Source: an uncultured Bacilli bacterium (GTDB taxonomy: Bacteria > Bacillota_I > Bacilli_A > RF39 > UBA660). Taken from it: a stretch of DNA of 44,529 nucleotides. The position numbers and the translations under genes were made by a program. Under the pieces are notes generated by a model, which did not search any database, was not told the DNA's origin, and saw only the letters and a list, made by a program, of their open reading frames with translations. Location: contig CALVXM010000009.1 in NCBI GenBank assembly GCA_944371305.1, positions 1-44,529 of the forward strand, given 5' to 3'. Of this stretch, positions 357 through 44,318 are shown piece by piece (position 1 is the stretch's first letter; every line of letters starts with the position of its first letter).

Positions 357-385
357 TCATAATTGTTTAAAAACTTTAATATACT
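357..385 (+). promoter_or_regulatory. sigma-E-like promoter of spoIIIAH
   Basis: TCATAAT (357-363), 14 bases, AATATACT (378-385). Against the known sigma-E consensus (KMATATT, N14, CATACAHT) this matches 6 of 7 and 6 of 8 positions. The predicted transcript start near 392 leaves a short leader with a GGAGGA ribosome binding site. In B. subtilis spoIIIAH is transcribed in the mother cell by sigma-E. In such AT-rich DNA some matches are expected by chance. Confidence 0.45.
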
Positions 386-409
386 TAACTAGATTATGGA
401 GGAATAATT

Positions 410-919
410 ATGATTAATAAAAAAAGTATCTGGTTTTTAACTTTATTTAGTCTTATTCTAGTTTTAAGCGTTTATTATATAACTATGCCTAGTGAATTAT
501 TATTAAATACAAATGCAGATTACGAGAAAGATAATAAAACTCAAGAGGAAACACCAACTACCACTATTGAGGAAAGTACAGTTTTAGTGGCATTAAGAGT
601 TGAAGCTGAAGAAGAATTATTAAAAGAAATGGAAAATTTACAATCAATTCTAAATAATAGCGAAGCTAGCGTTGAAGAAAAAAATGAAGCTTTTGAAAAA
701 ATGAAAGAATTAAATACTAACAAAGGTGAAGAAGAAAAATTGCAAAATAAAATAAAAGAAGTCTATAAACTAGAATCATTTGTCAAAATTAAAAAAGATC
801 AAATTGAAATCGTTGTAAAAAAAGAAGAAAATGATAGTACACTAGCTAATCAAATTATGAGAACTATTCAAGAATTATATCAAGAACAAAAATATATAAC
901 TGTTAAATTCACTAAATAA
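410..919 (+). CDS. spoIIIAH: SpoIIIAH-like stage III sporulation protein
   Basis: A mother-cell membrane protein of the engulfment channel (SpoIIIA-SpoIIQ feeding tube) that links the mother cell and forespore. The 169 residues start with a short basic tail and one membrane segment (about 7-26; [16 protein letters not shown] closely resembles the B. subtilis start). A Glu/Lys-rich coiled region (about 45-115) follows, then a small mixed alpha/beta C-terminus that would be the ring-building YscJ/FliF-like domain. B. subtilis SpoIIIAH is 218 residues, so this copy is short, mainly in the linker. The start is supported by GGAGGA seven bases upstream. No spoIIIAA-AG genes lie within the 409 bases upstream. 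No terminator follows, so transcripts may run on into gerE. Confidence 0.85.
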   Translation: MINKKSIWFLTLFSLILVLSVYYITMPSELLLNTNADYEKDNKTQEETPTTTIEESTVLVALRVEAEEELLKEMENLQSILNNSEASVEEKNEAFEKMKELNTNKGEEEKLQNKIKEVYKLESFVKIKKDQIEIVVKKEENDSTLANQIMRTIQELYQEQKYITVKFTK

Positions 920-929
920 TTATTGTTTT

Positions 930-1001
930 TTCCCTCACTTATTTATAATTGGTACATAGAATAATATGAAGAAATATAAACCACCCAAGGAAGTGAGGGA
1001 A
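930..1001 (+). repeat. 11-bp inverted repeat spanning the gerE promoter and ribosome binding site
   Basis: TTCCCTCACTT at 930-940 is exactly complementary to AAGTGAGGGAA at 991-1001, with 50 bases between. The right arm covers the GAGGG ribosome binding site of gerE (ATG at 1004). The left arm overlaps the -35 part of the sigma-K-like promoter. In a transcript running in from spoIIIAH the arms could pair and hide the ribosome binding site. A transcript started at the sigma-K-like promoter (about 970) would lack the left arm. Confidence 0.6.
936..963 (+). promoter_or_regulatory. sigma-K-like promoter of gerE
   Basis: CAC at 936-938 and CATAGAATA at 955-963, i.e. AC-N16-CATAnnnTA, a full match to the -10 consensus of the late mother-cell factor sigma-K with the two-base AC -35 element at about the right distance. 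gerE is a sigma-K gene in B. subtilis. The same layout occurs before spoVIF and before the small gene at 15194. Confidence 0.6.
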
Positions 1002-1003
1002 TT

Positions 1004-1210
1004 ATGTCTAAAAGTGTTTTGACCAAAAGAGAAAAAGAAGTATTTGATTTGTTAGTATTAAATCGTTCGACTGATCAAATTGCTAACAAATTAGGAATAA
1101 GTGAAAAGACCGTAAGAAATCATATTTCAAATGTAATGCAGAAATTAGGTGTTAAAGGTCGTGCTGGGGCTGTCATAGAACTTTTAAAATTAAAGGAAAT
1201 TTCATTATAA
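1004..1210 (+). CDS. gerE: GerE, late mother-cell transcription regulator
   Basis: A small LuxR/FixJ-type helix-turn-helix regulator that adjusts sigma-K-dependent coat gene expression. The 68 residues are essentially the DNA-binding domain alone, as in B. subtilis GerE (74). LTKREKEVFDLLV and GISEKTVRNHISNVMQKLGV, which holds the recognition helix, match that protein almost position for position. It lies between spoIIIAH and gerM; the gerE-gerM neighbourhood is also found in B. subtilis. It has its own sigma-K-like promoter, and a terminator follows directly. The ribosome binding site GAGGG lies in the arm of an inverted repeat, so translation may be controlled. Confidence 0.92.
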   Translation: MSKSVLTKREKEVFDLLVLNRSTDQIANKLGISEKTVRNHISNVMQKLGVKGRAGAVIELLKLKEISL

Positions 1211-1234
1211 AAAGGTATAAACAACCTTTTTTTT
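1210..1234 (+). terminator. terminator after gerE
   Basis: AAAAGGT, 7-base loop, ACCTTTT, then a run of T. It starts on the last base of the gerE stop codon. A GTATAAA-N13-CATAAAAT pair (1215-1242) overlaps it and could be a weak sigma-E promoter for gerM, but it would leave almost no leader before the gerM ribosome binding site. Confidence 0.75.
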
Positions 1235-1259
1235 CATAAAATTAATTAGGTGATTTAAT

Positions 1260-2222
1260 ATGCTTAAAAGAAAAATGATAAGGAAAATCATTATATCTAC
1301 TTCAGCCCTATTTGCTTTATTTTTACTTTATTTAATTCCTACTTCAGATAAAAACGATGAATTGGATGTTTCTCAAAATTTAGAATACGTCAATTTAGAA
1401 GTAGAAACCAATAGTATATATCTATTAGATAATTTTAATTATTTAGGAAAAACTGAAGTCGTTGTAAATAGTGAAACAACAGAAGAAAAAATAAAAGAAT
1501 TGGTAGAGGTATTAATAAATGGCGGGAATGGTGAAAATAAAATACCTAACGGGTTTAGATCTATTCTCCCTAGTGAAACTAAAATACTAAGTATTAAAGT
1601 TGAAGAAAATTTGGTTAAAATCGATTTTTCAAAAGACATTTTAAATATCAATAAAGATTTAGAAGAAAAGATGATTGAAGCTTTAGTATATACTATTACA
1701 TCAATTGACGGTATAGATAAAGTTGTTATTTATGTTGAAGGTGATATCCTAACTAAATTACCGCAAACAAACACTAATTTACCTAGTACATTAGATCGCA
1801 ATTTCGGAATCAATAAAACTTATGAATTTACTAAAACGGATGATATCAATCAGGTAACAATTTATTATTTAAACAAACACAATGATAACTATTACTATGT
1901 TCCAGTAACTAAATATCTAAACGATAACCGAGATAAAATAAAAATAATTATCGATGAATTAACCAGCACCAATACTTATAACACTAATTTGTTGAGCTAT
2001 TTAAGCAGTAACACTGAACTGTTAGCTATTGAAGAACAACCAGACATTTTAGAACTAACTTTTAATTCATATATTTTCTCTGATGTTGATAATAAAGATA
2101 TATTAGAAGAAGTTGTCTATACCATTTGTCTTTCTGTTAAAGATAATTATGACGTTAAAGAAGTTGTTATAAAAAATGAAGACGAGGAAGTTTTAAAAAC
2201 AGTTTTAAATACAATTGAATGA
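1260..2222 (+). CDS. gerM: GerM-like sporulation and germination protein
   Basis: A 320-residue envelope protein with an N-terminal membrane segment (about 10-27) and two GerMN (sporulation and spore germination) domains at roughly 75-160 and 225-315. Each holds the repeated pattern of a short LPS/LSS turn, a 'KI..I' strand and a 'I.FS' or 'LTFNS' strand. In B. subtilis GerM is a sigma-E protein needed to hold SpoIIQ and SpoIIIAH in place during engulfment, which fits the nearby spoIIIAH. Unlike the B. subtilis lipoprotein, no lipobox cysteine is visible, so it is probably anchored by its membrane helix. AGGTGA before the ATG supports the start. TGA is the stop. Confidence 0.85.
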   Translation: MLKRKMIRKIIISTSALFALFLLYLIPTSDKNDELDVSQNLEYVNLEVETNSIYLLDNFNYLGKTEVVVNSETTEEKIKELVEVLINGGNGENKIPNGFRSILPSETKILSIKVEENLVKIDFSKDILNINKDLEEKMIEALVYTITSIDGIDKVVIYVEGDILTKLPQTNTNLPSTLDRNFGINKTYEFTKTDDINQVTIYYLNKHNDNYYYVPVTKYLNDNRDKIKIIIDELTSTNTYNTNLLSYLSSNTELLAIEEQPDILELTFNSYIFSDVDNKDILEEVVYTICLSVKDNYDVKEVVIKNEDEEVLKTVLNTIE

Positions 2223-15146: not shown

Positions 15147-15174
15147 CACATTTTTAGTTTTATTTCATACTATA
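15147..15174 (+). promoter_or_regulatory. sigma-K-like promoter of the Pro/Tyr-rich gene
   Basis: CACA (15147-15150), 15 bases, CATACTATA (15166-15174). It is the same AC-N16-CATAnnnTA layout as at gerE and spoVIF. The mature start would be near 15180, next to the AAAGGAG ribosome binding site. Confidence 0.6.
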
Positions 15175-15193: not shown

Positions 15194-15418
15194 ATGTATC
15201 CAAATTATCAAAATATGCCTATGGATTACAAACATGCCCAAAATGGAAACTATCCAAATGATGAAAGATTTATTGGTGGCTTTGCTTTTCCTTTTTTATT
15301 AGGAGGAGTTACAGGAGCTGCTTTAGCACCTAATTTCTGGCGTCCTCCATACAATCGACCAATTTATCCATATCCACCTTATCCTTACTACCCACCTTAC
15401 GGCCCATATTATCGATAA
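15194..15418 (+). CDS. Pro/Tyr-rich small protein, probable spore coat component
   Basis: 74 residues. A polar Asn/Tyr/Met start is followed by a hydrophobic Gly/Phe/Ala segment (FIGGFAFPFLLGGVTGAALA, about 27-46), then a tail made almost only of Pro and Tyr with a few Arg/Asn (PYNRPIYPYPPYPYYPP...). Tyrosine-rich small proteins of this build are common in spore coats, where tyrosines can be cross-linked. The sigma-K-like promoter, the strong ribosome binding site AAAGGAG and the setting between spore genes support this. I know no named B. subtilis homologue, so the role is inferred from composition and promoter. Confidence 0.7.
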   Translation: MYPNYQNMPMDYKHAQNGNYPNDERFIGGFAFPFLLGGVTGAALAPNFWRPPYNRPIYPYPPYPYYPPYGPYYR

Positions 15419-17065: not shown

Positions 17066-17094
17066 ATTTTAATATTTATACTATGATAAGTCAA
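17066..17094 (-). promoter_or_regulatory. sigma-A promoter of rny
   Basis: On the minus strand TTGACT (17094-17089), 17 bases, TAAAAT (17071-17066). A 7-bp hairpin follows in the leader before the ribosome binding site. Confidence 0.7.
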
Positions 17095-17188
17095 GGATAA
17101 AGTTTAGATTTAACAAAACTAAATTTTACTGTAGATTTTTTTTTTATTATATTATATAATATTTATAGAATAAGTAAGGGTGATAAAA

Positions 17189-40759: not shown

Positions 40760-40788
40760 ATATTCCCTACTTTCCATAAGTTTAGTAA

Positions 40789-40817
40789 AATATATGTGAT
40801 TATCTTTTGGTTTATAC
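40789..40817 (-). promoter_or_regulatory. sigma-E-like promoter of spoIVA
   Basis: On the minus strand GTATAAA (40817-40811), 14 bases, CATATATT (40796-40789; 7 of 8 to CATACAHT). The transcript start near 40782 is 23 bases before the ATG. It supports the shorter start chosen for spoIVA, because the longer frame begins upstream of it. Confidence 0.5.
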
Positions 40818-40845
40818 CATATAAAAACTTGTTTTTTGAACAAGT

Positions 40846-41091
40846 TTAAAACATTTTATCAATATCTTTAGGAACATTGTCATTTTTAACTACATTTATT
40901 ATTTTTTCTTCTTTTTCTTTAGAAATATCTTTCCCCGTCATTTTCCCAAGTTCCCTAATTACTTCTCTTAATGTGTTTTCATCTTTTAAATTACCTTCTT
41001 GAAGTTTCTTAGCTAATCCTAAAATTGTTTCCTTACCAACATTAGTTTTTTTTTCAATTTTTTTGAAAAAGTTATCTGAAAAATTTAACAT
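40846..41091 (-). CDS. spoVIF: SpoVIF-like stage VI sporulation protein
   Basis: 81 residues, the length and pattern of SpoVIF (YjcC): FFKKIEKKTNVGKETILGLAKKLQ, then LKDENTLREVIRELGKMTGKDISKEKEEKI, then a short variable end. In B. subtilis SpoVIF is a late mother-cell protein, made under sigma-K and GerE, that helps GerE act and is needed for full coat assembly and heat resistance. It lies just upstream of spoIVA on the same strand but has its own sigma-K-like promoter. The ribosome binding site is GAGGTTGAT. Confidence 0.85.
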   Translation of the reverse strand: MLNFSDNFFKKIEKKTNVGKETILGLAKKLQEGNLKDENTLREVIRELGKMTGKDISKEKEEKIINVVKNDNVPKDIDKMF

Positions 41092-41107
41092 ATTATCAAC
41101 CTCAAAA

Positions 41108-41135
41108 TATTATATGAATATTTATTAAATAGGTT
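41108..41135 (-). promoter_or_regulatory. sigma-K-like promoter of spoVIF
   Basis: On the minus strand AACC (41135-41132), 15 bases, CATATAATA (41116-41108). The -10 is a full match to CATAnnnTA, with the AC element 16 bases away, identical in layout to the gerE and 15194 promoters. Confidence 0.6.
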
Positions 41136-44043: not shown

Positions 44044-44054
44044 CATTAATAAAA

Positions 44055-44131
44055 TGGTCGGGAAAACAGGATTTGAACCTGCAACCCCCTGGTCCCAAAC
44101 CAGGTGCTCTACCAAGTTGAGCCATTTCCCG
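44055..44131 (-). tRNA. tRNA-Pro (anticodon UGG)
   Basis: 77 bases. Acceptor CGGGAAA pairs with TTTCCCG, anticodon loop TTTGGGA, encoded CCA. Last gene of the minus-strand array. Confidence 0.95.
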
Positions 44132-44136
44132 ATAAA

Positions 44137-44213
44137 TGGTGCACTCGAAGGGATTCGAACCCCTGACCTTTTGGTTCGTAGCCAAACACTCTATCCAACT
44201 GAGCTACGAGTGC
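44137..44213 (-). tRNA. tRNA-Arg (anticodon ACG)
   Basis: 77 bases. Acceptor GCACTCG pairs with CGAGTGC, anticodon loop CTACGAA (A34 expected to be made inosine by TadA, reading CGU/CGC/CGA), encoded CCA. Confidence 0.95.
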
Positions 44214-44242
44214 AGAATCATTCGGAGTTCAAATTAAATAAA

Positions 44243-44318
44243 TGGTGGCTTCAGGTGGAATCGAACCACCGACACAAGGATTTTCAGTCCTTTGCTCTAC
44301 CGACTGAGCTATGAAGCC
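44243..44318 (-). tRNA. tRNA-Phe (anticodon GAA)
   Basis: 76 bases. Acceptor GGCTTCA pairs with TGAAGCC, anticodon loop CTGAAAA, encoded CCA. Confidence 0.95.

Follow-up and report, generated by a model that had tools for sequence, protein, structure and literature searches.

Three genes in a 44,529-nucleotide stretch of DNA from an uncultured Bacilli bacterium (the whole of which is referred to here as the window) are each preceded by an AC element and a CATA-type -10 element at one fixed spacing. This arrangement raises the question of whether the sites are promoters for σK, the late mother-cell sigma factor, and whether they define a motif particular to this lineage, as an earlier sequence-only reading had proposed. 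All three sites were found, with the layout AC-N16-CATANNNTA; the ACc-N15-CATA of the sequence-only reading is the same spacing, with the count begun one base later. Upstream of spoVIF, the site occupies 41108..41134 on the minus strand (AC -35 at 41133-41134, N16, -10 CATATAATA at 41108-41116), and upstream of gerE it occupies 937..963 on the plus strand (AC at 937-938, N16, CATAGAATA at 955-963). An exact match lies at 15148..15174 on the plus strand, before a gene encoding a Pro/Tyr-rich protein. A fourth exact match, absent from the earlier list, is present at 17077..17103 on the minus strand, upstream of rny (RNase Y), whose start codon follows 57 nt past it. Judged from sequence comparison, the first three are, with a probability of roughly 0.93, ordinary σK promoters; the fourth is a chance match.

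Genes behind the sites and the sigma-factor genes

The spoVIF gene (40846..41091, minus strand), reportedly the subject of a 2003 paper by Kuwana, encodes an 81-residue protein that scores 77 bits against PF14069 (cut-off 27) and 70 bits against NF052662, below the NCBIfam equivalog cut-off of 130. Its -10 lies 16 nt from the start codon, with a Shine-Dalgarno GAGG at 41100-41103. The gerE gene (1004..1210, plus strand) encodes a 68-residue LuxR-type DNA-binding protein (PF00196 (GerE), 70.8 bits) that is matched in 41 of the 59 genomes searched besides its own (62-96% identity, E at most 4.2e-20). Because PF00196 spans the LuxR class at large, we infer, rather than read directly from that score, that this protein is orthologous to B. 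subtilis GerE. The earlier reading counted known B. subtilis σK targets among the three genes, and for gerE this is stated in a passage of PMC3789822. Directly 5' of gerE, and separated from it by 84 nt, is a spoIIIAH-like gene (410..919, plus strand; PF12685, 49 bits, cut-off 30.6). The Pro/Tyr-rich gene (15194..15418, plus strand) encodes 74 residues, has homologues in 28 of the 60 genomes searched, its own included, and is probably a coat protein gene. At the far end of the window, an ORF at 44054-44314, with a translation starting MVGKTGFEPATPWSQTRCSTKLSHFPINGALEGIRTPDLLVRSQTLYPTELR and no NCBIfam match, looks spurious and possibly lies over RNA genes, a common annotation artefact.

A sigK gene was found as a single uninterrupted ORF on contig 25. 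Its 233-residue product scores 307 bits against the SigK subfamily model NF004471 (cut-off 252), 296 bits against TIGR02846, just below the cut-off of 298.65, and 206-220 bits against SigE models. A separate sigE gene adjoins spoIIGA and scores 321 bits as SigE and 262 bits as SigK; since it thereby also passes NF004471, it is the ranking of scores, not the cut-off, that separates sigK from sigE.

Counts, positions and conservation

The simplest alternative is that these are chance matches in AT-rich intergenic DNA from which three suitable ones were picked, and the raw counts favour it. The window holds four AC-N16-CATANNNTA matches against 2.26 expected, at least four occur in 20 of 100 shuffles (not significant), and one of the four precedes rny; the genome holds 60 N16 matches against 48 for the reversed pattern, an unimpressive excess. 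The earlier argument that three such layouts are unlikely by chance is thus not borne out, and raw motif counts, which give no enrichment in window or genome, were rejected as evidence. With that numerical argument gone, the case must rest on the position and conservation of the sites, and it is these, not the count, that lie above chance.

Positions were assessed by scanning the genome (1.14 Mb, 47 contigs) at spacings N16, N15, N17 and, as a control, N20, with genes called by a simple codon-bias script; start codons and genes are script-assigned, and a few are probably wrong. Distinct matches by script and by search tool numbered 47 and 46 (N15), 59 and 60 (N16), 81 and 82 (N17), and 61 and 60 (N20), the one-off differences stemming from repeated flanks and locus ends. 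At N16, 9 of the 59 distinct matches are intergenic and at most 110 nt before a start, or 10 with rny, whose start the script put too far downstream. Six of these ten precede late spore genes, at 16-40 nt: spoVIF, gerE, the Pro/Tyr-rich gene, cotE (PF10628, 177 bits), a CotJA-CotJB fusion and a gene for a Cys-rich 81-residue protein. The remaining four precede rny and NifU-like, FeoA-like and HTH genes, which have no evident spore role; the names of the last three come from visual inspection of their N-termini. Positioned matches at N15 (2 of 47) belong to a yqfQ-like gene (PF14181) and a sigma-factor gene, and those at N17 (3 of 81) to ylbD followed by ylbE (PF14071, PF14003), a GPTGATG-collagen-like gene and one unknown. 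None of the five positioned matches among 61 at N20 was recognised as preceding a coat gene. Late-spore genes therefore account for 6 of 59 matches at N16 vs 0 of 61 at N20 (Fisher p = 0.012, or two-sided p = 0.027 with the search-tool totals of 60 and 60; the numbers are small), whereas all positioned matches within 60 nt of a start do not differ significantly (8/59 vs 3/61, p = 0.12). The scan thus finds the enrichment before coat and spore genes that the earlier reading had anticipated. As the usable search pattern also put forward there, the motif serves when combined with start distance and conservation; since it also precedes the rny, NifU-like, FeoA-like and HTH genes, it filters candidates and does not prove them.

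Neither the Pro/Tyr-rich nor the Cys-rich protein has a Pfam or NCBIfam match, so calling them coat proteins relies on their promoters, amino-acid composition and conservation. The Cys-rich protein may resemble CotD, a likeness judged by eye. In the fusion gene (L018:1545-1967), CotJA and CotJB are apparently joined in 140 residues, the CotJB part scoring 82 bits and the CotJA part 17.7 bits, under the cut-off of 25; a manganese-catalase gene follows, as in cotJC. The collagen-like gene (L265:241-861) encodes 206 residues with a GPTGATG stretch and is preceded, 20 nt from its start, by a σK-like site of N17 spacing; it has no Pfam match above cut-off and is a candidate exosporium-like gene.

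Among relatives, the exact AC-N16-CATANNNTA layout lies at most 110 nt from the start in 50/79 spoVIF, 34/42 gerE, 23/37 cotE, 17/25 Pro/Tyr-rich, 18/25 Cys-rich and 20/29 cotJAB upstreams; pooled, it is present in 162 of 237 and missing in 75, counts that are not independent because many of the relatives belong to one genus. N15 and N17 combined account for at most nine upstreams in any single family. In the rny control, the layout occurs in 1 of 28 upstreams, that of the window's own genome, and the rny match was rejected as a σK promoter. Chance is thus upheld for rny, and the conserved footprints, at a fixed distance, together with the N20 control devoid of coat genes, oppose it for spoVIF, gerE and the Pro/Tyr-rich gene, for which it is barely credible.

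The SpoVIF relatives are the best 80 of 89 loci, all of them MAG or uncultured records. Among these, the nearest species-named record is Candidatus Faecisoma merdavium (91%), a species that NCBI assigns to Mycoplasmatota incertae sedis and whose lineage we take to be the GTDB order RF39. RF39 is predicted to be spore-forming in a passage of a paper on related orders (PMC10868615). The other sets comprise all gerE matches at an E of 4.2e-20 or better (30 loci and 12 fetched), 30 of 42 cotE matches with 8 fetched later, 30 of 57 for rny, of 40 for the Cys-rich gene and of 42 for cotJAB, and all 28 Pro/Tyr-rich loci, each of these searches covering up to 30 loci. Rows were left out for an incomplete locus, a start that could not be found or a missing blast match (cotE L327; Pro/Tyr-rich L384, L391 and L392; rny L411 and L416; spoVIF L170; Cys-rich L460, L464, L466, L470 and L472; cotJAB L500).

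The shape of the element is equally regular. A profile of 85 promoters, thinned family by family at 70% identity and anchored on the -10 alone, has A in 67% at -18 and C in 71% at -17; among the 26 positions preceding the -10, this C is the most informative, with 1.37 bits, and none but these two exceeds 0.45 bits. A G-rich Shine-Dalgarno zone starts 13 nt past the first base of the -10. When the -10 is at most 60 nt from the start, C is found at -17 in 181 of 211 upstreams (63/74 for spoVIF) and AC in 159. Eleven spoVIF upstreams carry GC at the AC position, much like bclB of B. thuringiensis (AGC-N16) as given in a passage of PMC4750369, and some families have a second conserved AC, spaced N22 or N13 from the shared -10. 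The median distance from -10 to start codon is 16-21 nt in five of the six target families, so close that transcripts would start nearly at the Shine-Dalgarno sequence itself; gerE is the exception at 40, with 32 of its 34 exact-N16 upstreams having the -10 at most 60 nt from the start.

A different sigma factor might also read these sites. Recognition by σE, instead of or besides σK, draws on the CATA -10 that is common to both types; for C. difficile, a passage of PMC3789822 describes very similar σE and σK -10 elements with differing -35 elements. ATA is also found at N18 in 23 of 79 spoVIF upstreams. The gene adjoining spoVIF provides a contrast. This gene, spoIVA (TIGR02836, 709 bits), has a σE-type promoter, read from sequence, at 40787..40815 on the minus strand (ATA-N16-CATATATTT), with ATA at the register where spoVIF has AC. 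Among the 59 of 80 spoVIF loci with a usable spoIVA upstream, ATA precedes CATANNNT at N15 in 32 and at N16 in 11, and an AC-type site at N12-N19 occurs in none. Conversely, ATA at N15 or N16 before CATANNNT is rare in the putative σK families (spoVIF 1/79, gerE 1/42, cotE 0/37, Pro/Tyr-rich 1/25). Between the two genes, a terminator-like hairpin read by eye, AAACTTGTT...AACAAGTTTTT (40821..40847, minus strand), makes them look like separate units with σK- and σE-type promoters. The neighbouring genes thus carry σK-type and σE-type -35 elements at about the same register, and σE recognition of the three sites is very unlikely. That the sites are σK promoters, as first proposed, is supported by the footprints, the spoIVA contrast, the sigK gene and the further sites before coat genes. 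In the σK reading, σK-RNA polymerase would recognise AC-N16-CATANNNTA, as it does in Bacillus and Clostridioides, and would activate spoVIF, gerE and coat genes at a late stage of sporulation; that σK binds these sites, and that the cell sporulates, is what we infer.

An inverted repeat around the gerE promoter

Just 3' of spoIIIAH, an inverted repeat at 930-1001 encloses the entire gerE σK promoter. Its 5' arm, TTCCCTCACTT (930..940, plus strand; from an RNA fold of 912-1020 and a duplex test), overlaps the -35 of gerE, and its 3' arm, AAGTGAGGGAA (991..1001, plus strand), lies in the gerE Shine-Dalgarno region. The predicted stem is 11 bp in the window and ~21 bp in sister species, L337 for example. 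A possible RNA safety catch formed by this hairpin is the sole unexpected part of the finding.

It may be, although we would place this somewhat short of an even prospect, that the repeat acts as a translational lock: read-through mRNA from spoIIIAH would hide the Shine-Dalgarno sequence, while σK-started mRNA, lacking the 5' arm, would be translated, and early GerE synthesis would be prevented. A passage of PMC517825 gives the spoIIIA operon of B. subtilis a σE promoter; under such a promoter, read-through would make GerE too early, and a hairpin could prevent this. The gene order is suitable: of 42 gerE loci, 31 have a co-directional spoIIIAH no more than 130 nt upstream, L357 has the gene 1.2 kb upstream, and ten show no match, nine of which hold at most 230 nt of upstream DNA. 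A terminator scan of window positions 380-1300 gave no terminator-like site. The same architecture is established for gene e of phage T4, according to a passage of PMC3014915.

Statistical tests of the pairing are mixed. When upstream-arm and Shine-Dalgarno-arm pairing was scored against shuffles (p <= 0.05), it beat them in 22/40 gerE and 15/74 spoVIF upstreams, with 3/28 for rny, 1/32 for cotE and 0/21 for the Pro/Tyr-rich gene. In a swap test using one gerE per genus (24 genera), the gene's own arms outpair genus-swapped arms (p = 0.0003 by energy, 0.0001 by z). Among the thinned sets for other genes, spoVIF (33) was also positive (z p = 0.0001) and cotE (15), Pro/Tyr-rich (7) and spoIVA (30) were not; against the lock, the rny control (18) was positive as well (p = 0.0019 by energy, 0.010 by z). 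The last 80 nt fold at z < -2 in 27/42 gerE upstreams vs 8/28 for rny, with 37/79 for spoVIF, 9/36 for cotE and 2/25 for the Pro/Tyr-rich gene. However, the window's own gerE region folds at a z of only -0.98. An alignment of 26 of the 42 gerE upstreams, with 16 distant ones left out (including L351, L360, L361 and L364), gave no predicted pair in RNAalifold and no column covariation, 87.5% of cells being paired vs 86.5% in shuffles. Shine-Dalgarno accessibility in the long RNA was rejected as a discriminator, since rny (0.28 unpaired) is as low as gerE (0.32). Two class relatives (L430 and L432) hold the hairpin inside the presumed σK mRNA, and the 5' arm is additionally constrained by the -35 element.

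The repeat could instead be a DNA operator, for example for GerE itself. TRGGY, which we take to be the GerE consensus, is positioned 33-34 nt ahead of the -10 in 20 of 40 gerE upstreams, where 1.9 are expected from mononucleotide shuffles, and the gerE -10 sits within a CATA...TATG palindrome. The arms, however, are ~50 nt apart, the G-T pairing seen in part of the genus suits RNA, and the window's own gerE upstream has no TRGGY at that place; an operator is rather unlikely. RCCYA, the reverse of TRGGY, is found in 19/24 cotJAB and 15/21 Pro/Tyr-rich upstreams (at most 1.9 expected in each), the samples being drawn from L335-L364 and L423-L434 for gerE, L473-L502 for cotJAB and L365-L390 for the Pro/Tyr-rich gene. 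The placement of TRGGY and RCCYA suggests that GerE may act jointly with σK.

To return to the lock, a broader and slightly less likely version is that in this lineage a promoter-in-hairpin safety catch is present at gerE and spoVIF and absent at cotE and the Pro/Tyr-rich gene; any mRNA begun upstream would hide the ribosome site, and σK-started mRNA alone would be translated. Among spoVIF upstreams, the shuffle test is passed by 14/57 with a co-directional upstream gene vs 1/16 with a divergent one; the window's spoVIF has a divergent upstream gene and no strong stem (z -0.34). In two related spoVIF upstreams, L212 and L214, perfect inverted repeats surround the -10, and a compensating change distinguishes the repeats of one from those of the other (AAAGTCCTCC/GGAGGACTTT and AAAGCCCTCC/GGAGGGCTTT). 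If the broader version is true, the sigma factor and the RNA structure would each enforce the timing of the last sporulation step, as happens with late genes of phage T4.

Comparison with known systems

The literature searched yielded no paper that treats σK promoters, or a hairpin at gerE, for this lineage. The promoter motif itself is already known from Bacillus and Clostridioides and is not lineage-specific; the earlier suggestion that it defines the lineage gives way to its identity with the σK consensus given in passages of PMC3789822 and PMC4750369. B. subtilis σK promoters share the AC-type -35 and the CATANNNTA-type -10 with those described here, and their consensus, in a passage of PMC517825, has a gap of 14-16 between blocks of 5 and 10 nt. 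In B. thuringiensis, the corresponding elements are CAC-N16-CATATGTTA for bclA and AGC-N16-CATATAATT for bclB, and transcription of iunH starts just 10 bp before the start codon, resembling the short promoter-to-start distances of this genome (passages of PMC4750369). Coat or exosporium genes are σK targets in the Bacillus systems (PMC517825, PMC4750369) and apparently here; unlike the cited Bacillus cases, this is an uncultured genome of 1.14 Mb, and the window has 27% G+C.

In C. difficile, as in this genome, the -35 is AC for σK and ATA for σE, with a similar -10, and the σK regulon includes the cotJB2-cotD operon and bclA genes; GerE is lacking there, as stated in a passage of PMC3789822, whereas this lineage has both GerE and SpoVIF. 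An uncultured, gut-related lineage with a small genome thus appears to keep the late mother-cell step, with genes for σE, σK, GerE, SpoVIF, CotE and CotJ. Because the promoter grammar is unchanged, the known σK pattern can be used to find coat genes without recognisable domains in this lineage.

The closest parallel to the gerE hairpin is gene e of phage T4, where, according to a passage of PMC3014915, a late promoter lies within a region that folds into a hairpin; the Shine-Dalgarno sequence is concealed in long transcripts, and short transcripts lack the 5' part of the structure. The T4 case concerns a phage gene and has experimental support, whereas gerE is a cellular sporulation gene for which the lock is proposed from sequence, and the statistics are mixed. 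Should the gerE hairpin prove real, it would provide a cellular, sporulation-related example of a form of control known from phage T4.
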